Assembly: GCA_022072025.1 (NCBI GenBank)
Contig: JAJVIP010000002.1
Coordinates: forward strand, 473,356 to 537,355
Direction of reading: 5' to 3'
Source of the DNA: Elusimicrobiota bacterium
GTDB taxonomy: Bacteria > Elusimicrobiota > Elusimicrobia > F11
Length of the DNA stretch: 64,000 nt
Of this stretch, positions 3,115-52,246 are shown piece by piece. The notes beneath the pieces are model-generated. The model was not told the origin of the DNA, did not search any database, and saw only the letters and a program-made list of their open reading frames with translations. The first letter of the stretch is position 1. Each line of letters starts with the position of its first letter. Made by a program: the position numbers and the translations under genes.

Positions 3115-4017
3115 ATGAAGCGATTAGCCTTGGTTGTACAAGTCCTGTGTGTTTCATTGATGTTGGGATCAATGACGAGTTGCCAAAACGGCAATTTGTT
3201 CGGGGGGTTGCATAAAAGCGGAGAATCCGGAGATACGCAGTCTCTTGTATCTGACGCTTCCATCGCACTTCGAAATCAAGATTATTCCGCTGCGCTGGAT
3301 CTGTATAACCGAGTCCTGGCTCAAGATCCCAATAACTCTGAGGCTCTTTATGGAGCGGCTGCCGCGGCTTTGGGTGGTTCTGGATTAAATTTTGGGGCCC
3401 TCATTTCAAACGTCCTCAACCAAAATGCCTCGGTCAGTGTCAGTGATATGGGCGATTTTATTTCCCACTCCCGTGGAAGACTGGGAGCCTCTGCCACCTT
3501 GGATTCGAACAGTATCCTTAAAGGTATTGATTTTACCCGCTTACGCCAAGAACTCCCTACCATTAAATCCCGGCTAGAACAGATTATTCTTGGGCTGACT
3601 GATTTAAAAATCCTTCCAGATGATGTGGATGTTCACCTTAACATTGCCGCGGTGGCTCTGATTGATGCGACTGTTGTAGCCATCGACGCTCAAATACTGG
3701 ATATCACCAATGTGAATGGGGAATTCGATATCGTGAAAGGAGCCAATTTCAACACCGCCTGTTCAGATGTCGCAACGATAAAACGAATCGGGTCCGATAT
3801 CGCCATTGCCTATTACAGTTTGACCCGTGTCATATTAAAGTTGAATTTGTCGAGCGATAAGATTATTTCCAAATTCAGAACGGATATTGCGGCCGTTGGT
3901 GATTCTCTTCTTGATCCACTGAGCGCAGATGCTTTACCTGCCGGTTGTTTGACGACTCTGGATAGTGTGGGAATCAACAAAGATACCTACAAAACCTACA
4001 CGGGCACCTTTTTATAA
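3115..4017 (+). CDS. Lipoprotein with TPR-like segment, next to PorV-like gene
   Basis: Predicted lipoprotein of unknown function. It starts with a lipoprotein signal peptide whose lipobox ends MTSC, giving lipidated Cys23. Residues about 45-80 form one recognisable TPR helix pair (ASIALRNQDYSAALDLYNR then DPNNSEALYGAAAA). The rest is helical with no family I recognise; three further cysteines are scattered. GAGGAGG sits 6 bases before the ATG. The next gene, a PorV/PorQ-family barrel, begins 10 bases after its stop with its own AAGGAG, so the two are surely co-transcribed and this protein may be a periplasmic or outer-membrane partner of that barrel. That partnership is inference from position only. 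Confidence 0.75.
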   Translation: MKRLALVVQVLCVSLMLGSMTSCQNGNLFGGLHKSGESGDTQSLVSDASIALRNQDYSAALDLYNRVLAQDPNNSEALYGAAAAALGGSGLNFGALISNVLNQNASVSVSDMGDFISHSRGRLGASATLDSNSILKGIDFTRLRQELPTIKSRLEQIILGLTDLKILPDDVDVHLNIAAVALIDATVVAIDAQILDITNVNGEFDIVKGANFNTACSDVATIKRIGSDIAIAYYSLTRVILKLNLSSDKIISKFRTDIAAVGDSLLDPLSADALPAGCLTTLDSVGINKDTYKTYTGTFL

Positions 4018-4027
4018 GGAGATATAA

Positions 4028-5392
4028 ATGAACCTCATGAAACGATTGAGCTTTGCCTTGTCAATGCTTCTAAGTTTTGAGTGTGTTTATGCTGGAGAAG
4101 TTCCTTCTGATATTCAATTCGTCCGTCCTTTGGGAATGGGTGGCGCCTTTACCGCGGTGGCCGATGATCACAACATCTTTAATTACAACCCCGCTGGACT
4201 TGTTCAGCGAACGGGAGGGCAATTGACGATGTTGGAAATTGCATTGGGGGCCGCTTCTGACACAAAAGATGCCTATGATTTCATCAAAGACAATGAAAAC
4301 GACCTGACCAACTTTGATGATTTGCCTCCCACCCGACAACAGGAATTGGTGAACGAAATCGCCACTGACATTGCACAACTGAACCCTCGTATTTATTCGG
4401 CGGGCAATGTGGCTTCCTATGTTTCGGGCCCCAACTTCTTGGGATTGCCTTTGCATGTTGGGTTTGGTGGGTTTTATGTGGTGGATGCCACCTTTAAACT
4501 TGAAAATGGGGTCCTTATCCCCACCATATCCTATGAGGTCAACAATGATATTGTGCTCCCGCTCTCAATTGCTCATCGTTGGGATATGCCTTTTCTTCCG
4601 GGGAAAATAGGAGTTGGACTTACCGGGAAAATTATTCAACGGTCTCAGGTAAAACAGGATCGATTGAGCGTGATTCAGTTGGAAGATATGGAGGCTCCCC
4701 CTTTTGCGACGGGAAAAGGATTTGGGGGGGATCTGGGGATTCTCTATCAACCCACCGATCGGACGAACTTGGGTTTCATGGTGAAGGATATTGGTGGAAC
4801 GAAATTGAAATATGACGCGGTCGCGGCCGAAAAAGGATATCCAGCCATTGCGGAACGTGAGACAGTCATTAGTCCCATTACGAATGTTGGATTATCCATG
4901 GTTCCTAAAAAAATTCTTTGGCTTATTCCTACCTCAGATCGTTGGACCTTTTCAGCTGATGTATGGGACATCTTAAATGAAGACGATCATTTGTTTTTTG
5001 AAGATGGCTTTAACAATGTCTTCGGTGAAAATCTTTACACCCATCTTCATTTAGGAGCGGAATACCGGTGGTGGTTCTTGCGGTTTCGTGGTGGAGCGAG
5101 TGAAGGATATCCCACTCTGGGGTTGGGGCTTGACTGGCCGCTCTTAAAACTTGACTATGCTTTCTATTCGCAAGAATTGGGGGAATTCGCGGGTGACCTA
5201 CGGCAAGAAAACCATGTGGTGTCTGTTGCTTTGAAATTCGGCGGTGAGGCCACCGAAAATCGAGAGCGAATAAAAAAATCCAAAGAAATCAAGCGTGGGG
5301 GGAATGAAAGTATTCCAGAGTCCGCACCATCCACGAATATTCCAGAAAGTTCGACCAATCCAGGCACTGGGGCGGAGGGGGTTCCTCAGTAA
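4028..5392 (+). CDS. PorV/PorQ-family outer-membrane beta-barrel protein
   Basis: Outer-membrane barrel of the FadL-like PorV/PorQ group. 454 residues with a signal peptide (cleavage after about residue 22, VYAGE). The hallmark just after cleavage is RPLGMGGAFTAVADD followed by NYNPAGL, the motif that defines PorV/PorQ and UPF0164-type proteins; after it comes alternating aromatic/glycine beta-strand sequence up to about residue 400. A polar, Ser/Pro/Gly-rich tail of about 50 residues follows the last strand, which is odd because barrels usually end on a terminal aromatic strand. In Bacteroidota, PorV binds SprA and hands cargo to the attachment complex; a SprA-family gene lies 2.2 kb downstream here, across lptF/lptG. 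PorV-specific function is therefore plausible but not shown. Confidence 0.8.
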   Translation: MNLMKRLSFALSMLLSFECVYAGEVPSDIQFVRPLGMGGAFTAVADDHNIFNYNPAGLVQRTGGQLTMLEIALGAASDTKDAYDFIKDNENDLTNFDDLPPTRQQELVNEIATDIAQLNPRIYSAGNVASYVSGPNFLGLPLHVGFGGFYVVDATFKLENGVLIPTISYEVNNDIVLPLSIAHRWDMPFLPGKIGVGLTGKIIQRSQVKQDRLSVIQLEDMEAPPFATGKGFGGDLGILYQPTDRTNLGFMVKDIGGTKLKYDAVAAEKGYPAIAERETVISPITNVGLSMVPKKILWLIPTSDRWTFSADVWDILNEDDHLFFEDGFNNVFGENLYTHLHLGAEYRWWFLRFRGGASEGYPTLGLGLDWPLLKLDYAFYSQELGEFAGDLRQENHVVSVALKFGGEATENRERIKKSKEIKRGGNESIPESAPSTNIPESSTNPGTGAEGVPQ

Positions 5393-5404
5393 ATAGCCCC
5401 TTTT

Positions 5405-6487
5405 TTAAGCGGCTCGCCTCATTCGCCACCATAGGAACAGGCCAATGAGGGAGAAACAGATATTCCCAAGCCACGCTCCAAACCAGGGTGGCACAAGTCG
5501 CTGGGCCATCGCCTTCCCAAATTGCATAAACCCGAGATAGAGCAATGTGAGGACAAGGCCTGCCGCGATCCCAAGGGCCGGGTTACCTTTACCGTGTAGG
5601 GCCAGTGGGATTCCGATAAACACCACAACAAAACAGGCAAAGGGATAGGAGAGTTTCATCATGAGTTCCACTCTCAAGGGCCGCGCCGGAACGCCCAAAG
5701 CTTCCATCCGATGAATGTGTCGACGAAGATTTTTGTAGGTCATTTCTTCAGCTTGAGGTTCTTGAATGCCAAAGTCCGATGGCTTTTCTGAAAAGTTAAA
5801 AACTTCCTCGGTAAATGACCGAACGTGATCGATGTTTAAACCATCTTCCTTATAGGTTCGAATGACACCATTGTTGAATTTCCAACCCTCACTGGTCCAG
5901 ACCGCAGATTCCGCGTCGATTTGGGGAGACAATCGACCTTCTTGAAGTTGATCAATCACAACTCGGTTTAACTGCCCTGTCGATTCATTCAATATTTGGA
6001 TTGTCCAGACCCGGCCATCGGCTCCTGCCACAATCAAATTTTTATATACGCTGGGACGCCAATCTCCCAGCTTCCGAATCTTTTCTCTAAAAACTGTTTT
6101 GGAGTACCGGTTAGAGGGCGGAATGATCGTTTCATTTGCCAAGAGCGCCAAAAACGAGATGAAAATGCCAGCCAAAAACAACCCTCCGAGGAATTTTTCA
6201 GGAGGGAGCCCCCCAGCGAGTCCCGCAATATACTCTCTTGAGCGTGATAAGTTTCCAACCACAAACAGGGTCCCCAACAAACAAGCCACAGGGAGTATTT
6301 GAAACGCTTGATAGGGCATTGAGGAGATAAGAAAACCCAAAACGTGATGGAAAATGACGCCTTCTGCCAAAAAACGGTCCAATCGATCAAAAATTTGAGA
6401 AACGAATATCAAGCAACACAAAGCCGCGAAAGAGGCGAGGAAAGGGCGAATAAACTTTCTTAAAACATATTTATTAAGAATGCTCAT
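5405..6487 (-). CDS. lptG: LptF/LptG-family LPS export permease (second of pair)
   Basis: Inner-membrane subunit of the LptB2FG ABC transporter, which extracts LPS and passes it to the periplasmic bridge. About 360 residues: three N-terminal membrane segments, a periplasmic jellyroll-type region (about residues 130-260), and three C-terminal membrane segments ending in WWRMRR. The start MSILNKYVLRKF is preferred over an ATG 63 bases further upstream because it overlaps the stop of lptF by 4 bases (ATGA) and matches the family N-terminus. The 3' end lies 12 bases from the convergent PorV-like gene with no clear terminator. Assignment of LptF versus LptG between the two is by order only. Confidence 0.9.
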   Translation of the reverse strand: MSILNKYVLRKFIRPFLASFAALCCLIFVSQIFDRLDRFLAEGVIFHHVLGFLISSMPYQAFQILPVACLLGTLFVVGNLSRSREYIAGLAGGLPPEKFLGGLFLAGIFISFLALLANETIIPPSNRYSKTVFREKIRKLGDWRPSVYKNLIVAGADGRVWTIQILNESTGQLNRVVIDQLQEGRLSPQIDAESAVWTSEGWKFNNGVIRTYKEDGLNIDHVRSFTEEVFNFSEKPSDFGIQEPQAEEMTYKNLRRHIHRMEALGVPARPLRVELMMKLSYPFACFVVVFIGIPLALHGKGNPALGIAAGLVLTLLYLGFMQFGKAMAQRLVPPWFGAWLGNICFSLIGLFLWWRMRRAA

Positions 6488-7569
6488 TGTTTGGCCAATC
6501 TGGCAATTAAAATTACCGCCAAGATAAAACAAGTGCCATTGCCTATCCACAAGGCCAGGTCTGAAGGGAGAATGCCTTTTTCCGCCAAGGTAAGCCCCAA
6601 AATAAGCAGCGTGTAATAAATGAAAATCACAACGATGGACACGCCAAAGCCAAATCCTTTTCCACCTCTTCTTAGAACAGTGGCGAGAGGAATGCCCACC
6701 AAGGCCAATGCCAATGGAGAAAAGGCGATGGCGATTCGAAGACTCCTTTCCGCGTTGACGGGATGAACGGGCATGCCTTTTGATTTGAGATCTTTTTGTA
6801 ATTCATTTAATTGGGGGCTGGAGAGATTTCTAAATCGGGTATTTTGTCCCGTTAATTCTTCTCTGGCGGGAATCGTGATTCGATAGGTGTCAAACGCTGT
6901 ATGGAGGATGCGGGGCGGAGAAAAGGCGTCATATTTCTCAAGTTGACCGTTCGAGAGATCGAGTTGATAAACATTGGGTTCAATGCGCAACACGCCGGTT
7001 TTCGCAAAGATGCGCTCTGGCGGCCGGCCCTCTTCGTTTGATTGAAAAACAAAAAGATTGATGAGTTGCTGCGTGTCTTTGTTAACTTCCTCAGGAAAAA
7101 GTTTGATATTTCTGATGGCAAAGAATTTTTTCTCTTGAATGTTGATTAAGGGGTCGGCATTCGCGATTTGTTCGTAAATCAAGCGAAACCCTCGGTTGGC
7201 CCACGGCGCAATATGGGTGTTAAAGGGAATCATTCCCAAGCTCAGAATCAATGTGAACAACGGGGGGAGCCAGAGCACACGAAACAACGATATCCCCGCC
7301 GAACGAACAGCCGACAATTCATTTTCTTCCGAAAGACGGCCGAAAGTAACCAAGCAGGCCAATAAACTGGCCATAGGAAGAGTCAATGGGATCACGGTGG
7401 GAACAAACAAGGCAAACAGACGAGCCACAATGATCCAATTCACGCCTTTGTTGAATATCAAATCAATAATGTCAAAAAGACGATCAAGCAAGAGGACAAA
7501 TAGAAACAAAACCGCGCCGAAAAAAAAGGGGGGAATGAACTGAAAAAAGAAGTACCGACTGAGCCTCAT
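6484..7569 (-). CDS. lptF: LptF/LptG-family LPS export permease (first of pair)
   Basis: Partner permease of the LPS exporter. 361 residues with the same layout as its neighbour: membrane segments at about 8-32, 45-75 and 95-120, a periplasmic beta domain in the middle, and three C-terminal segments. Its TGA stop overlaps the ATG of the second permease, which indicates translational coupling and equal dosage. It is divergent from the SprA-like gene, and both promoters must lie in the 69 bases between them. The presence of this pair with LptE elsewhere in the window shows an LPS-type outer membrane. Confidence 0.9.
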   Translation of the reverse strand: MRLSRYFFFQFIPPFFFGAVLFLFVLLLDRLFDIIDLIFNKGVNWIIVARLFALFVPTVIPLTLPMASLLACLVTFGRLSEENELSAVRSAGISLFRVLWLPPLFTLILSLGMIPFNTHIAPWANRGFRLIYEQIANADPLINIQEKKFFAIRNIKLFPEEVNKDTQQLINLFVFQSNEEGRPPERIFAKTGVLRIEPNVYQLDLSNGQLEKYDAFSPPRILHTAFDTYRITIPAREELTGQNTRFRNLSSPQLNELQKDLKSKGMPVHPVNAERSLRIAIAFSPLALALVGIPLATVLRRGGKGFGFGVSIVVIFIYYTLLILGLTLAEKGILPSDLALWIGNGTCFILAVILIARLAKQ

Positions 7570-7638
7570 GGCCGCTTTTATAACACATCTTGTTCGATTT
7601 TTCAGAATTGAAAATCGGCTTGAAAACTAGAGGGTTTG

Positions 7639-10600
7639 ATGATACCCTCGAATTCAGGAAAGGACCTGAACTTGCGGCAATTTGCATCAATATTGGCTCG
7701 GAATTTTTCAAATTTTCTGATCAGCACAATTCTTGCGCTGGTCTTTTTTTCAACACCCCTCTTCTCTCAAGAAACCCCCTCTTCCAGACGTTTCTCCATT
7801 GGTCCCAGCTTAGAAGAATCAGAATCAATCCCGAACCCCAAAGAACCTGAGGAAATGTTTCTGTTTAATCAAGAAGAGTGGAACAAAATGAGAAGGGTTA
7901 TCGAAGGAGAGGTTGAGCCTGTATCTGTTTCCACGTCAGCGGTTGTTTCTTCCACTGTTACGGCCACGCCTCCCAAGCCTCCCCCAGGTTTGTTGACGGT
8001 GGATTTGCCTTATGAATCCCAACTCTCCATTACGGGAAGAAAAGTAATCAAGCTGGATATCGAAAATACTCATATCAGCTCTGAGCGGGCCAGCGAATTG
8101 GGAACCAAACAAGATTCTCAATCTTTCAACATGCAACAAGAATTACAGGCTCGTATTCAAGGGACAGTGGCCAGAAAAACGACCATCAATGTTAATTTTG
8201 ATGACACCAAAGAGAATGTGAAGGATTTTTCTGTTGTGTACAAAGGTGATCCGGATGAGGTGGTTCAGGAAGCGGCGTTTGGAGATATCCTCTTGTCCTT
8301 GCCATCCACCGAATTCGTGAATTACAACAAACAACTTTTTGGTATTCGGGCAGCACTGAAATATAAAAAGGCGGGGTTTATGTTCATCGGGTCCCGCACG
8401 AAAGGAACCACCGAAACCAAACGTTTTACCGGCGCCACCACACGGCAGCAAAAATTTATCAATGATACGAGCTATGTTCGCCGTAAATTTTATGATTTGA
8501 CCTTTGCCACCGCCACGGCCATGCAGGTTCCGGCCATCCTGGGCAACCATCCTGTTCTGCCTATCAACGGCACCATCCCTGAAACGGTATTCATAGAGGA
8601 CACCACGGGATTAAATCCCTTGGCAACCAATTATATCGTCGCGACACCCACCGCTCCGGTCACCACTACATTTAATATTCGGATGCGACAACTGTCTCCT
8701 GGTGTTGATTTCAGTATTGACCGTATCAAGGGCGTCATAACGTTTGTGAACCCTGTCTCTGAAGATGTGCGCGTCGCCATTGATTTCACGCTGTCGGACG
8801 GAACGCGCCTTAGTTCTTTGTTGGGTAACCACATGGTGCTGATCAAGGATAAAACCCCCGAAGGGGCGCAGGTCAGTCAGGAAATAAAAACTTTTTATTC
8901 TGTGGGAGACCGGAACATCGTTAGAGATGATGGGTTGGGAAATTTTGTTTTAAAAGTTCTGGATAAAAATCGAGAAAATGAAATTGGAGACACGTTGAGT
9001 CCTCCTCAGCGCTACCCGGACACCATTGAAATGAAATTTGAAACGGGTATTTTTGAACTGAAACAACGCCTTCCGTTTGATGATCTGTATGCCTCCAATG
9101 TGAACACGGCGAGCCCGTTACAAGCCGTTTTTTCCGTGGAGTACCAATCTGTTATTCGAACGTTTACGTTGCGTCCCAATATCGTGCTTCAGTCCGAATC
9201 AGTGGAGGTGAATGGAAGAAAAGTGTCGCGAGATTTGGATTACTTCATTGATTACGATATCGGGATCATTACTTTTTTTAATGAAGATTTAATTCGCGAA
9301 TCAACGGTCATTGAAGTGACCTATGAATTCGCCCCTTTTGGCGGGGTGTTGGGGGAAACCTTGGTGGGCGCGCGCGGAACCTATGATATTTTCCTGAACA
9401 AAAAAGGAAGCCTGGGGGGGGTGGACTCTTGGTCGGCCGGTTCGACGGTGCTTTATAATTTTGCCGCAAAACCCTCCAGCCCGCCCGATGTTCGTTCGAC
9501 GCCGGCCAGTCTGTTGGTCACGGAAGGGGATTCGCAAGTCAAAGGTCTGACTTTCGGACGTATTCCCCTCAAAACAAATATTGCGGTTGAAGCCGCCAGG
9601 TCGGATGAAAACCCCGATTTATTCGGAAAAGCGATTGTGGACTCAATGGAAGGAATTAAACAAGAGGACAACTCCTCTCTTTTAAAAGAAGCCTGGTTAC
9701 CAGCGGCCAATCCCATCGTGTCTGGAGCCAATACCATTATGGATTTTCGTGGTAGCGAGAGCACCGTCAGTCATATTTATTGGGGAGATTTGGATGTGGA
9801 TACAACCGACCCTTCTGATGGAAGCACTCAACAAAAAGCGTTGGAAATCAATTATTCGTTGAATCCCTCTCCATCTGCCACCATGGAGCAAGTGTCCTTG
9901 GTCAATATCATATCGACTGGTGGACGTGATTTTTCGAAGAAAACGACATTGGAAGTGGAAATTGAAGGGGCCGGTTCCGATGGACAAGATGTTGAGATGC
10001 AAATTGAATATGGGAGTTTTAACGAAGATGCCGATGGAGACTCCCTGTTGGATACCGAAGATCAAATTCCGTTTGATGGTGTTTTGAACCTGGGTGAAGA
10101 TGTGGGGTATTCATTTGACGGACCCGGGCCTGATCTCACCAAAGGTGATGGATCTGATATTCCCGTTACTATTGGGGGGGGTAACAGTCGAATGGATAGC
10201 GAAGATTTTAACAATGACCGTGTTCTTTCGACCTCCGATTTGCCAGCAACTTTTTCTTTGGGTCCTCTCTTTTTATTGTCCTCCACGCGGGGGGAAACCA
10301 ATTCCACGGGGAATTTAAGAACAGACTTGAGTTTTAACGGGCGGGAACTTTTTCAAATCCCGTTGAATATCTCGAAGTTATCCGGGGAAGAACAGGCTCG
10401 ATTAACGTCCGTAAAACAAGTTCGCCTCACCATTCGCAATTCCAATCCAGCGGTGGCCAAAGCAGGGAAAATAAGGATCGTTCGACTCTCTGTTGTCGGC
10501 AATTCTTATGAGCCTGCCACGATCAATGGCAATGCGTTCAGTACCATGACGGTTCGCGCCATCAACAGCAAAGATGATGCCACCTACCAGACGCTCATAG

Positions 10601-13104
10601 GAAACCCGGCCTATAACGACCTCTATAAAAACGCCACACCCGCTTCCGATGCCAAGGAACAGGCTCTGGCCTTGGACTATGATTTGCTGGCCTTTACCAC
10701 AGCCACCACTCGCAACGCCTATAGTGCGCCCAGAGATTTTTCAAATCACGATCAATTTCGTTTCTTCGTGAGCCGCCCCGATGTTTGTGCGGGATGTAAT
10801 ACCGATGGGCAGTTTTTCTTTCAGGTGGGATCTGAGACGGAGTTTCAGCAAGCCTCCATCAATATCGTGGATATTCCCGCCAAACCCGTTTGGAAATTGG
10901 TGACAATTGAACAACAAGATTTGAATACTGATGGAACACCCGACACCTGGGTCTCCAGTGATCCCACGGTGGTCATCACTAGGACGACGGGTATACCCAA
11001 CGTCACCCAGGTGTCCCAAATTAAAATGGGAATTAAAAATAACACCGGGGGCCAAATAAAGAATCAAATCTGGGTCAATGAAATCCATGTGTCAGGGCCC
11101 CATACCCGGACCGGACATGCCAAGCGGTATTCTTTTGATAGCCAATGGCCTGGTTGGATGGATTTTGGAGGCGGGTACAGAGATGTGGATCGGAATTGGC
11201 AAACGCCCACCACCGCCATTACCAATCAGGACAGCACCCAAACCAACGCGTTTGTGAATTTTAATCGAATCGCATTTCTACCCATGACATTTAAAACCAA
11301 TCGCGATATCACGGTTACGCCGTCTGCGTTTCAGGCCAATCAGAATGCTTTGGTGTCATTTTTTGATGAAGGTCGTGTGGAGTCAATCAACAACGTTTCT
11401 ACTGCCAAACTCCTATTGCCGCGCTTGCCGATTATTGATGTGTCCTTCACAAACAATAAAAATGAAAACACTCTTACTCAGAGAAATGAGTTCAATGATA
11501 TCCTCAATATCGGGGCCACCTACGCGCCCAAATCGCGAATGGATATTCTTCCCATGGACAAATTGACATTCCGTCCTCTTCCCACTTCCATTACTTATGT
11601 GCATGTGGCCCGTCGAACCAAACTTCGGTTTCCCGATGTCTCCCGTTTGGTGGAATACAATATTTCAACTTCTCCCTTTTCCTCCACCAATCTCACCCAA
11701 TTCAGCACCGAAGATGAGGCTCGTTTGGCCTTCAAACCATGGGATGGGTTCTCTTTTAATCCCACATATAAGCTTCGAACCGACACCGAGGAACGCGATT
11801 TTAGAGAAGATGAAATAATCGCCCTGCCCTCATTGGTGGACCTTGATCAACGTACGACACCGCGATCCATGTCCCAAACCATTTCAGCTACAGGCAATTT
11901 GAAAATTTTCAAGTGGTTGGACCCTCGATATAACTATTCAATGGTGGGAACCGAAACCAATGGCTTGCCCACGCAATCGAATACCACTGGATACACCTTG
12001 AAGAACATCACGCGAAACAGCCAAGGAGAAGTATCAGGGGCGATTCAAGTCAATCAAATCTTGCCGAAATCAAAGCTCCTTAATTCCATGAATTTCAATC
12101 TCAGTTATAAAATTGAAAATGGAGACACTTACGCCGATATGCCGGAAGATTTTCAATGGCGAAACCAGTTGTGGGTGGGCCGTCCCTTGACTGTGGAGAG
12201 TTCGAGTGGAACCGGGAATGTGGCGCGACGTTTGGATGCCACCGATCGTCGAACTTTTCGGTCGAATTTGGCCTGGCAACCTTGGAGCGCCTTTAAAATT
12301 GACAATCGTCGTTTTAAGCCACTGAATACCTTGTCATTGACGAGCAACTACTTGGTTTCGACTGAAGACAGTGAAACAACCGGCACATTCCGTCACGTGA
12401 AATCAGTCACTTGGCCTGACCTCATTTTAACGATCAACGATATCGAAGATTTTTTTAAAGTGAAAAAAGCGGTTGATAATTCCCGTCTTGTGGTGAAATC
12501 CAATAAGCGCCTAACCGAAACGCGAGATGTGAGCCGCAGTATTTCCTCTTCATGGGGTACGGATTATCAATTCCAGTTCATGAAAAAATTGGATTTTTCT
12601 GCGACTTACAATCAGACAGACGCGCGTGAGGACAACTTGGTCATCAATCAATTGGTGTCAGAATCCAAGTTGGTCAATTACTCCCTTCAGACCAGAATCC
12701 CAACAAAGAATTGGGCCTACACCCCCCGTTACGAACGAGTTGAAAATGATGCCAATGATTCAGTGAGAGTCACAAATGATTTGGTGAATGATATTTTTTC
12801 GCTTCAGATTTATGGCGACATCTCAAAGCCCTTGGGTATCCGACTCGGGAGGCGGGAAATCGGATTGGCCAACAGAGCGATCCTTAATTCGACCATCAAG
12901 TGGGACAAAAAGCGTTCGAGTATCAATCCGGCGAGCAATTATCTGGATACTTATTCCGCAACTCTCTCAGGCGATTACACCATTTCTCAAAATTTCCGTT
13001 TGGCCGTTGGGGGGAATTTTAGCCAAGAACGCTATCATCCCGACTTCAAGAAATTGGATAAATCCGTTTACGGTATCAATTCCACATTGACCATTCAGTT
13101 CTAA
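7639..13104 (+). CDS. SprA-family giant outer-membrane protein (type IX translocon-like)
   Basis: 1,821 residues with an N-terminal signal peptide (hydrophobic stretch about 27-40, ending FSQE). Shortly after it comes SprA-type sequence: LQARIQGTVARKTTINVNF, then VVYKGDPDEVVQEAAFGD at about residue 199 and a SKGTTETK-like block (RTKGTTETKRFTGA). About residue 795-870 holds acidic DxDxDG-type loops (DADGDSLLDTEDQ, DFNNDRVLSTSD), as in SprA plug and cap regions. The last 700 residues are amphipathic beta strands with a final strand ending TIQF. In Bacteroidota, SprA is a 36-strand pore of about 2,400 residues for type IX secretion; this one is shorter. ATG start with AGAGGG 4 bases before; an in-frame TTG 33 bases on is an alternative that gives a tighter signal peptide. 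Confidence 0.8.
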   Translation: MIPSNSGKDLNLRQFASILARNFSNFLISTILALVFFSTPLFSQETPSSRRFSIGPSLEESESIPNPKEPEEMFLFNQEEWNKMRRVIEGEVEPVSVSTSAVVSSTVTATPPKPPPGLLTVDLPYESQLSITGRKVIKLDIENTHISSERASELGTKQDSQSFNMQQELQARIQGTVARKTTINVNFDDTKENVKDFSVVYKGDPDEVVQEAAFGDILLSLPSTEFVNYNKQLFGIRAALKYKKAGFMFIGSRTKGTTETKRFTGATTRQQKFINDTSYVRRKFYDLTFATATAMQVPAILGNHPVLPINGTIPETVFIEDTTGLNPLATNYIVATPTAPVTTTFNIRMRQLSPGVDFSIDRIKGVITFVNPVSEDVRVAIDFTLSDGTRLSSLLGNHMVLIKDKTPEGAQVSQEIKTFYSVGDRNIVRDDGLGNFVLKVLDKNRENEIGDTLSPPQRYPDTIEMKFETGIFELKQRLPFDDLYASNVNTASPLQAVFSVEYQSVIRTFTLRPNIVLQSESVEVNGRKVSRDLDYFIDYDIGIITFFNEDLIRESTVIEVTYEFAPFGGVLGETLVGARGTYDIFLNKKGSLGGVDSWSAGSTVLYNFAAKPSSPPDVRSTPASLLVTEGDSQVKGLTFGRIPLKTNIAVEAARSDENPDLFGKAIVDSMEGIKQEDNSSLLKEAWLPAANPIVSGANTIMDFRGSESTVSHIYWGDLDVDTTDPSDGSTQQKALEINYSLNPSPSATMEQVSLVNIISTGGRDFSKKTTLEVEIEGAGSDGQDVEMQIEYGSFNEDADGDSLLDTEDQIPFDGVLNLGEDVGYSFDGPGPDLTKGDGSDIPVTIGGGNSRMDSEDFNNDRVLSTSDLPATFSLGPLFLLSSTRGETNSTGNLRTDLSFNGRELFQIPLNISKLSGEEQARLTSVKQVRLTIRNSNPAVAKAGKIRIVRLSVVGNSYEPATINGNAFSTMTVRAINSKDDATYQTLIGNPAYNDLYKNATPASDAKEQALALDYDLLAFTTATTRNAYSAPRDFSNHDQFRFFVSRPDVCAGCNTDGQFFFQVGSETEFQQASINIVDIPAKPVWKLVTIEQQDLNTDGTPDTWVSSDPTVVITRTTGIPNVTQVSQIKMGIKNNTGGQIKNQIWVNEIHVSGPHTRTGHAKRYSFDSQWPGWMDFGGGYRDVDRNWQTPTTAITNQDSTQTNAFVNFNRIAFLPMTFKTNRDITVTPSAFQANQNALVSFFDEGRVESINNVSTAKLLLPRLPIIDVSFTNNKNENTLTQRNEFNDILNIGATYAPKSRMDILPMDKLTFRPLPTSITYVHVARRTKLRFPDVSRLVEYNISTSPFSSTNLTQFSTEDEARLAFKPWDGFSFNPTYKLRTDTEERDFREDEIIALPSLVDLDQRTTPRSMSQTISATGNLKIFKWLDPRYNYSMVGTETNGLPTQSNTTGYTLKNITRNSQGEVSGAIQVNQILPKSKLLNSMNFNLSYKIENGDTYADMPEDFQWRNQLWVGRPLTVESSSGTGNVARRLDATDRRTFRSNLAWQPWSAFKIDNRRFKPLNTLSLTSNYLVSTEDSETTGTFRHVKSVTWPDLILTINDIEDFFKVKKAVDNSRLVVKSNKRLTETRDVSRSISSSWGTDYQFQFMKKLDFSATYNQTDAREDNLVINQLVSESKLVNYSLQTRIPTKNWAYTPRYERVENDANDSVRVTNDLVNDIFSLQIYGDISKPLGIRLGRREIGLANRAILNSTIKWDKKRSSINPASNYLDTYSATLSGDYTISQNFRLAVGGNFSQERYHPDFKKLDKSVYGINSTLTIQF

Positions 13105-13116: not shown

Positions 13117-13140
13117 GCAGGCCCCTCCTTGGAGTTTTTA

Positions 13141-13812
13141 ATGAATTCATTGGTTCGCGAATTGAGTTATTTCTTTTTTCCTGCCACCTGCATTTCCTGT
13201 AAAGAGGATTTGATCAAATGCCATGATCAGCCATTTTCACTGTGTGTGTCGTGCAGGATCAAAATAAATTGGAATAGCCATATGGAATATTTGGTGGATT
13301 CTCCCCTGGACTGTTTTATCGCCTTGGCTGAATTCAAAGGTCCCCTTCGAGAGTTGATTCACGCGTTCAAATACCGTGGAAAGGGATATTTGGCGCGGGA
13401 ATTGTCCCAGCGGCTTGTATCAACTTTACAAGACAGCGGTGTGTCTTGGGATTGTCTGGTCCCGGTGCCCATGAGCAGTTGGAAGGAATTAAAACGAGGA
13501 TATAATCCTCCTTTCCTGGTGGCGCGAGAGATGGCCAGTCAGTTGAAAAGCGCTTTTTATCCCAACTTTCTCGTTCGTAATTTTTTTTCTCGGTCTCAAA
13601 CCAAAATGGGAAGAAAAGAGAGATTTCATAACGCCGTTAAGGGGTTTAAATTAAAAAGGAGAGATAAAGTTCTCTCAGGGCAATCGGTTCTTTTGGTGGA
13701 TGATGTATCAACCACGGGGGCCACATTGGTGGTGTGCGCGCGCCTTCTCAAATCGCTTGGGGCGATACGGGTGGGGGGGATTGTTATCGCCAAAGATGTC
13801 CTTGATATTTGA
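13141..13812 (+). CDS. comF: ComF-family phosphoribosyltransferase-like protein
   Basis: Cytoplasmic ComF/GntX family; linked to handling of single-stranded DNA during natural transformation in competent bacteria, with the biochemical role still uncertain. 223 residues: an N-terminal zinc-ribbon with two CxxC pairs (CISC and CVSC, residues 15-40) and a C-terminal type I phosphoribosyltransferase fold with the PRPP loop VLLVDDVSTTGAT. The start is the ATG behind GGAG (6-base spacing) rather than the TTG 12 bases before. It stands alone between the SprA-like gene and gap. A pilT gene elsewhere in the window is compatible with DNA uptake but does not prove it. Confidence 0.9.
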   Translation: MNSLVRELSYFFFPATCISCKEDLIKCHDQPFSLCVSCRIKINWNSHMEYLVDSPLDCFIALAEFKGPLRELIHAFKYRGKGYLARELSQRLVSTLQDSGVSWDCLVPVPMSSWKELKRGYNPPFLVAREMASQLKSAFYPNFLVRNFFSRSQTKMGRKERFHNAVKGFKLKRRDKVLSGQSVLLVDDVSTTGATLVVCARLLKSLGAIRVGGIVIAKDVLDI

Positions 13813-28422: not shown

Positions 28423-29538
28423 TTAAAAAGTCACCAGAAACTGGAGGGCTCCAGTGGATACGCTGTCTTCCAGCATTCCTTTGTCATCCACCCATATTTT
28501 CTTGTTGGACGAATCTTGTCTGTATTCAGCCCGAACAAGAACATTGTCTGTGATTTTGTAACCCGGGGTAATGGTGATGTTGGTGGTGCTTATGTTGCGT
28601 GTTCCAGTCCGCGCTCCCTCTGGATCGGAAAAATATTCAAGGCGAGCCCCGATCGAAAACTTGTCGCCGAAATGAATAATGGGTTGGACTCCAGCGCCGC
28701 TCCAGCTCGCTCGATCGTCATTTATAGTGTCTCCATCGTTATCCACGACTTGAGCTTCGGTCCCGGCATTCGCTTGTAAATACAGGTCTACCATCGGGAT
28801 TATTTTCGTTAGAACTGTAAGGTCAATGCTGTCACGGTTAGCGCCGGAGCGGCTATCTGTGATCACTCCGCCTGAAGTCACTTGGTTTTGCTCAGGCCCA
28901 TGGGTTCCTGAAAGGGTCGCCATGAGGGGATCTCCCAAACTCAACCCAATTTTTCCGATAACCGTTTTTCCTTGGTTGTTGTCATTGGCTTGATCCCATC
29001 CATTGACCAATCCAGCGGCAAAATCCAATTTCCCTAAGACAAAAGTTGCCACGCCACCGACATGGGTGTAAGGTTCAGCCAAACCATACAGATAACCCCG
29101 GGAGATGGTGGGATTCGCATTGGTTTCGATCACCTCAATTCCTTCATAAGTGGCAAACTTTCCCACTTTAAACCCCAATTTACAGGGAGCCATGTAGGTC
29201 AAATATCCTTCTTGAAGGGCGACACCCGAAGCTGGGATGCTTCCAACAGTAGTGTTGGCGTCATGCCCGGCATCCAGGTCAACCACATAGCCAATACCCT
29301 CGCCAAATGTCCCAGCAAAAGACAAATGGACAGTGTTGGCCAACGTGTTGTCTTGAGAGTCGTAACTTCTCAGCGCCGTCGTGCCCGTGTTGGGTTTGCT
29401 GAAATTGTACCCATATTGAGTGTCGACATATCCACTCACTGTGGGTCCCTCAGCCATTAGACTACCTGTTAATCCCAACAAGAAGAGGGCCATCCCCCAT
29501 GTTTTTTTACTTTTACCCCATCGATTTTGCGTCTTCAT
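28423..29538 (-). CDS. Outer-membrane beta-barrel porin
   Basis: Predicted outer-membrane channel. 371 residues from an ATG behind AGGAGG (7-base spacing). Signal peptide with hydrophobic core about 16-30, cleavage after GSLMA. The mature protein begins SGYVDTQYGYNF and continues as alternating beta strands (about 16) ending ALQFLVTF, a terminal phenylalanine as required for Bam-dependent insertion. It resembles the BBP2/OmpL-like porin group. It has a calcium-style acidic loop (DNDGDTINDDR). It stands alone and is preceded by a leader with an intrinsic terminator, so expression is probably conditional. Substrate unknown. Confidence 0.85.
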   Translation of the reverse strand: MKTQNRWGKSKKTWGMALFLLGLTGSLMAEGPTVSGYVDTQYGYNFSKPNTGTTALRSYDSQDNTLANTVHLSFAGTFGEGIGYVVDLDAGHDANTTVGSIPASGVALQEGYLTYMAPCKLGFKVGKFATYEGIEVIETNANPTISRGYLYGLAEPYTHVGGVATFVLGKLDFAAGLVNGWDQANDNNQGKTVIGKIGLSLGDPLMATLSGTHGPEQNQVTSGGVITDSRSGANRDSIDLTVLTKIIPMVDLYLQANAGTEAQVVDNDGDTINDDRASWSGAGVQPIIHFGDKFSIGARLEYFSDPEGARTGTRNISTTNITITPGYKITDNVLVRAEYRQDSSNKKIWVDDKGMLEDSVSTGALQFLVTF

Positions 29539-29578
29539 TTTCAACCTCCTATAAGTGTTAAATCAACGGAGTTGGGGC

Positions 29579-50689: not shown

Positions 50690-52246
50690 GTGAATCGTCA
50701 ACATTCGATCTTGTTTTTTGGCGCGTTATTCCTGCCTTTTTTGATTTTGTACGGTTTAACCACGAATCAGCTGTTTTCCTTTGATGCCATCACCAACGCC
50801 ATCGCCTGTGAAACCAATGAATCCATTCGATGGTTTCATCCCAATCATCCGCTTTATCCTTTTTTGGGGGTTCTTTGGTTTAAACTCGAAAGAGCGTTGG
50901 GATATGACGGGTACGCCGTTTATTCTTTGGCTCGGTTTAACACTCTCCTCATGTCCTCTGCGCTGGGGCTTCTGTGTTTAACAATTAAAAAGCAGAGCGG
51001 GTCATTTAACAGCATTGCATTGACTTTTTTCTTGGGGGTTACCTATGCGGTATGGCATTACGCTGTAGACGGAAGAGCGATCGGGGCATCGGTATTTTTC
51101 TCGGTTCTTCTGATCGTTTACCTTTTTCATTTACAAGAGTTCAAAGACTTGAATTTCACACAGTTGGTCATCATGGGCATTCTTTCTACCGCTTACGTTT
51201 TGGTCCATGGCATAGGCTTTTTTCATGCCTTTCCAGTTCTATTTTGGCTGTGGCAAAACAAACGTTCTCCTCAACAGCTGTTCGTTTATGGTCTGACCTT
51301 TTTTGGGGGGCTTTTTTTGTGTTATGTGCTGGTTTACTCCTATATTACGTCGATTAATTCAGGCTCCTCCTTCTTTCAATGGGCCCTGGGTTACGCAGGG
51401 CCCCATGGGAACACAAATATGACAGGGGGCGGTTTTTGGGGGCGGTCTTGGTTGTCGATCATAGAAGGTCTCTGGGTGGGATGGGAGCGTTCCCTCCTAA
51501 CCGTGCTTCCTTTCAAAATGGGAAAAATACTTTCCAGCGGATTGGCTGGAATATGCCTAATTTTATTCCTCACTTTGTTCGCAGGGTTTAAAAAAATTCC
51601 TACAAAGCATTCAAAACTGGCGTTTCTGTTCATTCTCTGGGGAATGGTGATGTTCCCTTTTTTGGCTTTTTGGAGTCCAGGTCAAGAGGGTTTTCGACTT
51701 CATGTGTTGATTCCATGGACTGTCGCTTTGGGAATCCTCATTGGCACTAGACGCCTTTTCTCATGGTTACTTCTTCTTATGGCAGTTGTTTTATTTTATT
51801 TAAATTTTTCTCATTGGTTTTTTAAAGCATCATTTATCGAGAACAATCAGGGTTATCAAACCCTTCGCGCAATAAGAAGTCTCGTTAAACCAGGAGATGT
51901 TATCGTGGCGGCGGAGCCTGGCTCGATCCCTGGAATCGAGGTTTTGTTACCCTATTTATTCCCGGAACTCAGCGGGGGAACCCTTTCAGGAAGGTTGATG
52001 GCTTTTCGTGAAACTTCTTTGGACCCCTTTACAAATCATTTGATCGGAAAAATTCAACGGGGGCATACTGTTTATTTTTCCGAAGATATGTTTGATGATA
52101 AGATTCAACAAGGAATTGAAAATCGGATGGCTTTGCCTGAACACTCATTCAGGAATTTGTGGTTAATATTTAAACCCGAAGAAGCTATTGAGAGTGTGAA
52201 TGGGGTAACACTGGTCCGGATGAAGCTTTTACAGAAGCCTATTTGA
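50690..52246 (+). CDS. Polytopic membrane protein, probable GT-C glycosyltransferase-like
   Basis: 518 residues with about 10 to 12 membrane helices and a soluble C-terminal domain of about 130 residues. The first periplasmic loop after helix 1 contains the acidic FSFDAITNAIACE and WFHPNHPLYPF, a layout like GT-C (ArnT/PMT or DUF2723) enzymes where an early acidic loop is catalytic. I cannot name the substrate. GTG start without ribosome site, 44 bases from the divergent PBP start. Its 3' end overlaps pilT by 8 bases tail-to-tail. Confidence 0.6.
   Translation: MNRQHSILFFGALFLPFLILYGLTTNQLFSFDAITNAIACETNESIRWFHPNHPLYPFLGVLWFKLERALGYDGYAVYSLARFNTLLMSSALGLLCLTIKKQSGSFNSIALTFFLGVTYAVWHYAVDGRAIGASVFFSVLLIVYLFHLQEFKDLNFTQLVIMGILSTAYVLVHGIGFFHAFPVLFWLWQNKRSPQQLFVYGLTFFGGLFLCYVLVYSYITSINSGSSFFQWALGYAGPHGNTNMTGGGFWGRSWLSIIEGLWVGWERSLLTVLPFKMGKILSSGLAGICLILFLTLFAGFKKIPTKHSKLAFLFILWGMVMFPFLAFWSPGQEGFRLHVLIPWTVALGILIGTRRLFSWLLLLMAVVLFYLNFSHWFFKASFIENNQGYQTLRAIRSLVKPGDVIVAAEPGSIPGIEVLLPYLFPELSGGTLSGRLMAFRETSLDPFTNHLIGKIQRGHTVYFSEDMFDDKIQQGIENRMALPEHSFRNLWLIFKPEEAIESVNGVTLVRMKLLQKPI

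Follow-up and report, generated by a model that had tools for sequence, protein, structure and literature searches.

A SprA-family giant barrel with PorV-family carriers and sorting-domain proteins suggests a type IX-like export system in Elusimicrobiota

To our knowledge, giant outer-membrane pores of the kind used by the type IX secretion system (T9SS) have so far been described solely in Bacteroidota and their relatives. Such pores include SprA of Flavobacterium johnsoniae and Sov of Porphyromonas gingivalis. The SprA barrel is made of 36 strands (PMC7463736), and in F. johnsoniae a carrier protein holds the C-terminal sorting domain (CTD) of the cargo inside SprA, energy being needed to release the pair (PMC10994853). 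Genes for type B cargo in this organism are commonly followed by their own SprF/PorP shuttle gene (PMC12618676). Here we describe a SprA-like gene, SprAL, located in a 64,000-nucleotide stretch of DNA (the window; C2:473356-537355) from the 3.64 Mb genome of an Elusimicrobiota bacterium (the host genome), together with the PorV-family and CTD genes of the same genome and of a phylum sample of 100 Elusimicrobiota genomes, which served for all presence and absence counts. Our literature search, which left most subscription papers outside its reach, turned up no paper describing a T9SS in this phylum; annotations of this kind may already exist in public databases.

A first-pass annotation of the window had proposed a SprA-family barrel and a nearby PorV-like barrel as a possible type IX-like translocon outside its usual setting. 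Both genes were confirmed at the positions it had given. The larger of the two is organized as follows:

7636..13104, + strand: SprAL, SprA/Sov-family giant outer-membrane beta-barrel (TIGR04189 at 91 bits, profile search, AlphaFold models of two halves)
8023..8493, + strand: SprAL residues 130-286, SprA N-terminal homology (GRK, DDT, GDPxEVVQ, FGD, LPSTEFVxYNKQLFG, SRTKGT), best stretch of the TIGR04189 match
10024..10245, + strand: SprAL residues ~797-870, acidic EF-hand-like loops, kept in 17 homologues
11011..13101, + strand: SprAL residues ~1126-1822, 29 predicted beta-strands of at least 10 residues in a run (strand count on the AlphaFold model of residues 640-1822)

The 1,821-residue SprAL is a true SprA homologue. 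Its reading frame can start at a TTG codon at 7636 (1,822 residues) or at an ATG codon at 7639 (1,821 residues), and the N terminus, judged by eye, resembles a signal peptide. The SprA-type N-terminal sequence noticed in the first pass goes beyond chance: TIGR04189 (surface_SprA) matches in three stretches with 91 bits and E=3e-26, a score that indicates homology below the same-function threshold, as the equivalog cut-off of this model is 200 bits. A Pfam search with PF14349, which the first-pass annotation had suggested as a check, gave no match in SprAL at E<=1. Single-sequence searches of the PDB with SprAL and with the PorV-like protein returned nothing useful, and profiles were therefore needed. 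Homologues were collected in a scan with one genome per species, and all of them come from Elusimicrobiota. When a profile of 17 of these homologues was compared with all PDB chains, the sole match was F. johnsoniae SprA (E=5e-26), along three collinear stretches. Residues 130-286, the best-conserved part of the family alignment, are aligned with SprA 160-267, and the longest aligned stretch opens in the acidic-loop region (profile position 851, SprA 1158). The acidic EF-hand-like loops are likewise real and conserved in the 17 homologues. The protein ends in TLTIQF, an outer-membrane beta-signal whose terminal QF is invariant among them.

The predicted fold points in the same direction. SprAL was modelled by AlphaFold as two overlapping halves, residues 120-1300 and 640-1822, from 46-sequence alignments, with mean pLDDT values of 76.5 and 79.7, respectively. 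Structure searches with both halves placed four SprA structures (8gl6, 8gl8, 6h3i and 6h3j) first, with best E values of 1.5e-45 and 9.2e-34, whereas the first non-SprA matches reached 4.8e-5 and 6.9e-6. TM-scores of the halves against SprA have moderate values (0.42-0.49), which half barrels may be expected to give. Joined, the models contain 37 strands when a minimum of 11 residues is set and 44 with a minimum of 10, the exact strand number not being settled by half models. The giant barrel anticipated from the sequence is thereby borne out, and in its predicted structure SprAL has the giant, 36-strand-type, single-chain barrel fold of type IX pores. SprAL therefore shares with SprA and Sov a sequence profile, a predicted fold, a similar strand number, acidic loops and an outer-membrane location signal. 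It differs from them in length (1,821 versus ~2,400 residues, the shortening already noted in the first pass), in its identity of 11-13% in structural alignment, in phylum and in gene neighbourhood, which here consists of LptFG and ComF.

Across the phylum sample, SprAL was found by profile in 93 of 100 genomes, nearly always full length and in single copy. We counted 92 genomes as carrying it, including G048, in which the gene is cut at a contig end, and excluding G017. The latter holds no more than a decayed SprAL fragment interrupted by five in-frame stops (G017:C1:953503-954112); its 1.1 Mb genome also has no PorV and no CTD matches. A recent import of the locus was considered and rejected, as its G+C content (0.46-0.47) is unremarkable against that of the window (0.43-0.47) and SprAL is a single-copy gene throughout the phylum.

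PorV-family carriers, which are expected of a type IX system, are abundant in the host genome, where 32 matches fall in about 30 genes spread over the genome, 19 of these genes exceeding the cut-off of the NCBIfam model PorV_fam. A profile of twelve host proteins retrieved the SprA-bound PorV of F. johnsoniae (6h3i_F) from the PDB at 2e-34; FadL-type channels reached only ~0.04. The host set agrees in these respects with the PorV/PorQ shuttle family, and is unlike the described PorV/PorQ systems in its size, ~30 genes per genome, and in the fusion of some members to other domains. The barrels fused to LysM, OmpA plus FecR, TPR or FlgD_ig domains, which may be peptidoglycan-tethered carriers, are:

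L142:3626-4876, L151:1301-2491, L154:4950-7349, L156:1837-3672 and 9487-11289: fused PorV-family barrels
L157:5447-7153, L152:11928-13280: fused PorV-family barrels, continued

Candidate cargo is equally plentiful. The T9SS type A CTD model TIGR04183 has 25 matches at E<=0.1 in the host genome, 15 of them marked over the cut-off. All but one end no more than 17 residues from the stop codon, with K or R as the last residue in 22 of these 24; the 25th (C7:122017, 14.9 bits), internal to a nucleotidyltransferase-like protein, was discarded as a false match. The host genome thus encodes 24 C-terminal sorting domains of type A, one of the two types that mark type IX cargo. A profile of 20 of the CTDs matched the PorZ CTD best among PDB structures (3e-9), followed by the PorU CTD (8e-7), with SprA-bound substrates matching weakly. 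Like T9SS type A CTDs, these domains therefore sit at the protein end and are kin to those of PorZ and PorU. CTD matches occur in 69 of the 100 genomes of the phylum. One locus (L158:6383-6733) encodes a 117-residue protein consisting of little beyond a signal peptide and a CTD; the next gene downstream is of the PorV family.

Cargo and carrier genes are physically linked. For 16 of the 25 CTD matches in the host genome, a PorV-family match lies on the same strand, at most 612 bases further downstream, while random placement on a simplified linear genome (20,000 runs) gave a mean of 0.10 such pairs and a maximum of 3; about half of the ~30 PorV-family genes are paired with cargo genes. The best matches listed from the phylum sample include 27 CTD genes that precede a listed PorV gene on the same strand; no listed pair is arranged differently. 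The reverse order, with a PorV-family gene directly upstream of a CTD gene, was seen at L151:1301-3947 and L153:1559-3549. In F. johnsoniae, the order of a cargo gene and its downstream shuttle gene typifies type B cargo with SprF (PMC12618676), whereas the host pairs type A-like CTD genes with a downstream PorV. The host resembles the type B systems in placing a cargo gene before its own shuttle gene and in having an OmpA-type link to peptidoglycan (PorE in F. johnsoniae), and is unlike them in its type A-like CTDs and PorV-family shuttles and in fusing the peptidoglycan-binding domains to the shuttle itself. By analogy, the pairing in Elusimicrobiota looks like type B shuttle logic combined with type A-like signals and PorV-family carriers.

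The three components also vary together. Counts of PorV-family and CTD matches per genome are strongly correlated over the 100 genomes (rho 0.94), the PorV counts saturating near 19-20 and being read as at-least values. Intact SprAL and PorV (E<=1e-10) occur together in 92 genomes, SprAL only in 0, PorV only in 1 and neither in 7 (Fisher 5e-10). Within family f9, the corresponding numbers are 22, 0, 1 and 7 (Fisher 4e-6). These losses are non-independent: f9 accounts for all of them, a single small-genome genus for most, and the assembly is fragmented in two or three genomes.

The homology of SprAL, of the PorV-family proteins and of the CTDs, the cargo-carrier pairing and the co-occurrence were all obtained by computation, and on this basis SprAL is very probably the outer-membrane translocon of a T9SS-like export system, with dedicated carriers, that is near-universal in Elusimicrobiota. 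The translocon proposed outside its usual setting is upheld in this form: SprA comes first both by profile and by predicted structure, in a genome with PorV-family shuttles and CTDs. As to the transport cycle, we infer that cargo would reach the periplasm through Sec, and that its C-terminal Ig-like sorting domain, a type A CTD, would enter the SprAL barrel and then bind a carrier of the PorV family positioned on the wall of the barrel. The two would exit laterally together into the outer membrane, leaving the cargo displayed on the cell surface and held by its own carrier, often the product of the next gene. Carriers fused to LysM or OmpA may tether cargo to peptidoglycan, and an M6 protease that bears a CTD of its own would be a candidate for cutting CTDs. 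With neither a C25 sortase nor a GldLM motor detected, release would be powered and finished differently.

The immediate surroundings of SprAL in the window comprise the following genes:

3115..4017, + strand: TPR lipoprotein upstream of the PorV-like gene (TPR matches slightly under the Pfam cut-offs; conserved Cys after the signal sequence)
4028..5392, + strand: PorV-like (TraF_2/UPF0164-type) outer-membrane barrel with a polar, low-complexity C-terminal tail (NF033709, PF13729, hhalign)
5405..6550, - strand: LptG, lipopolysaccharide (LPS)-export permease (PF03739, 1e-75; TIGR04408, 179 bits)
6484..7569, - strand: LptF, LPS-export permease, divergent neighbour of SprAL (PF03739, 7e-79)
13129..13812, + strand: ComF-type phosphoribosyltransferase, 3' neighbour of SprAL (PF00156)

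The LPS-export permeases reported between SprAL and the PorV-like gene are indeed LptG and LptF, on the minus strand (PF03739). A divergent LptF/G-type gene adjoins SprAL in 30 of 41 loci, and a ComF gene, probably not part of the secretion system, follows it in many; two loci of family f2 (L133 in G036 and L134 in G034) show SprAL beside both LptFG and ComF. In other lineages, PorV-family genes and the gene of an M6 protease with a CTD are also found at the SprAL locus. Elsewhere in the window are a BBP2-type porin (28423-29544, - strand; PF07642 at 1e-53) and a 518-residue open reading frame (50690-52246, + strand) with no Pfam match at 1e-5.

The PorV-like neighbour of SprAL does belong to the PorV family, as a remote member. 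It scores 45 bits against NF033709 (cut-off 90) and 26 bits against Pfam TraF_2 (PF13729; cut-off 25), and hhalign relates it to the unambiguous PorV-family members encoded by this genome with 99.8% probability (E=9e-29); a profile of its branch found no PorV in the PDB. The branch is present in 22 of the 100 genomes. The TPR lipoprotein occurs in 18 and adjoins the PorV-like gene in 17 of these, the two forming a conserved two-gene unit that lies sometimes less than 10 kb from SprAL and sometimes elsewhere. Since the unit is confined to about one fifth of the genomes, stands at variable distance from SprAL and is also kept without it, the PorV-like protein is not to be read as the main partner. 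The first-pass annotation, which had set it together with SprAL as a possible translocon, is corrected on this point: it is a divergent branch, and the main PorV set lies elsewhere. It is possibly a lineage-restricted carrier, and the TPR lipoprotein may, by analogy only, be SprE/PorW-like.

No motor or sortase gene was seen among the annotated genes of the window, for which the first pass had listed GldKLMN, PorU/Z and PorX/Y as absent. Over the 100 genomes, searched without a positive-control genome, GldM had no match anywhere and GldL none over the cut-off; three weak, chance-like GldL matches in G033, G001 and G020 are, by eye, a repeat protein, an M23-type peptidase and an MlaD-like protein. 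GldL and GldM are likely absent from these genomes, searches aimed at GldK, GldN, SprE, Plug and SkpA not having been made. C25/PorU (PF01364) is missing from the host genome and present in 1 of the 100 genomes (G006, over the cut-off, so that the search was able to find C25). A candidate to replace the C25/PorU sortase in cutting CTDs is an M6 metalloprotease whose C terminus is a sorting-type domain; it is encoded at the SprAL locus in several lineages, though not at that of the window:

L003:5184-6878, L005:4650-6356, L014:5842-7485, L020:5793-7460, L135:3682-5628, L136:6444-8141: M6-CTD protease

The idea of a reduced system fits the non-detection of GldL, GldM and C25/PorU, as does that of a differently powered one. 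The first-pass annotation held that missing motor components together with missing CTD cargo would speak against its proposal; the motor was not detected and the cargo is abundant. Whether the system works without a GldLM-type motor has to be weighed apart from the identity of SprAL. We entertain as a tentative possibility, somewhat short of an even chance, a T9SS outside the FCB (Fibrobacterota, Chlorobiota, Bacteroidota) superphylum that runs without a motor or on another source of power, lacking GldLM and C25 and possibly representing a pre-motor translocon. A complete T9SS, in which GldL, GldM and the ring proteins are too divergent for the curated models to recognise, is compatible with SprAL as a translocon and also conceivable, if rather doubtful. 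SprAL itself falls far under its own cut-off, and shorter components could therefore be missed, in searches that matched no GldM and only weak GldL and that included no genome known to have either; against this, 0 of 100 genomes exceed the cut-off for GldL or GldM, the three weak GldL matches look unrelated, and the SprAL, PorV and CTD models do match in the same genomes.

Export of protein is the function that the other alternatives dispute. We regard it as very unlikely that SprAL, with its SprA fold, serves to transport envelope lipids or LPS, although the frequent LptF/G neighbour would suit such a role and the C-terminal half of SprAL weakly matches LptD. The LptD matches are ~28 orders of magnitude weaker than those to SprA, the LptF/G adjacency is missing in 11 of the 41 loci, and the PorV and CTD sets covary with each other and with SprAL. 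LptFG are, moreover, inner-membrane permeases that have their own outer-membrane partner in other bacteria. It seems similarly improbable that the CTDs are FlgD-type Ig modules which merely stabilise proteins in the periplasm or at the surface, and that the PorV-like barrels are ordinary FadL-type porins, given that the CTDs are strictly C-terminal with their K/R ends, that PorZ is their best PDB match, that CTD and PorV-family genes form pairs whose order is largely constant, and that the PorV set prefers PorV to FadL-type channels by the margin given above.

Several observations nevertheless weigh against SprAL as a near-universal protein translocon. The CTD profile matches FlgD structures nearly as well (2e-8), the fold being common to both, and Pfam FlgD_ig often outscores Por_Secre_tail on these domains. 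In the gut family f2, 22 of 29 genomes have SprAL and one to three PorV genes with no CTD at E<=0.001, which also suits a role in lipid or LPS transport; SprAL may have another or an additional substrate there. GldL and GldM were not detected, though in Bacteroidota motor energy releases the carrier (PMC10994853). The SprAL losses are confined to one family, mainly to a reduced-genome genus where many genes go together, and the window-type PorV-like branch is kept in three genomes where SprAL was not found.

A near-universal SprA homologue accompanied by PorV and CTD sets in Elusimicrobiota would alter the assumed origin or spread of the T9SS. The phylum would offer a natural test of which parts such a system needs, with translocon, carrier and signal kept and motor and sortase apparently not. 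Its CTD set gives a concrete inventory of proteins likely to be on the surface of these little-studied bacteria.
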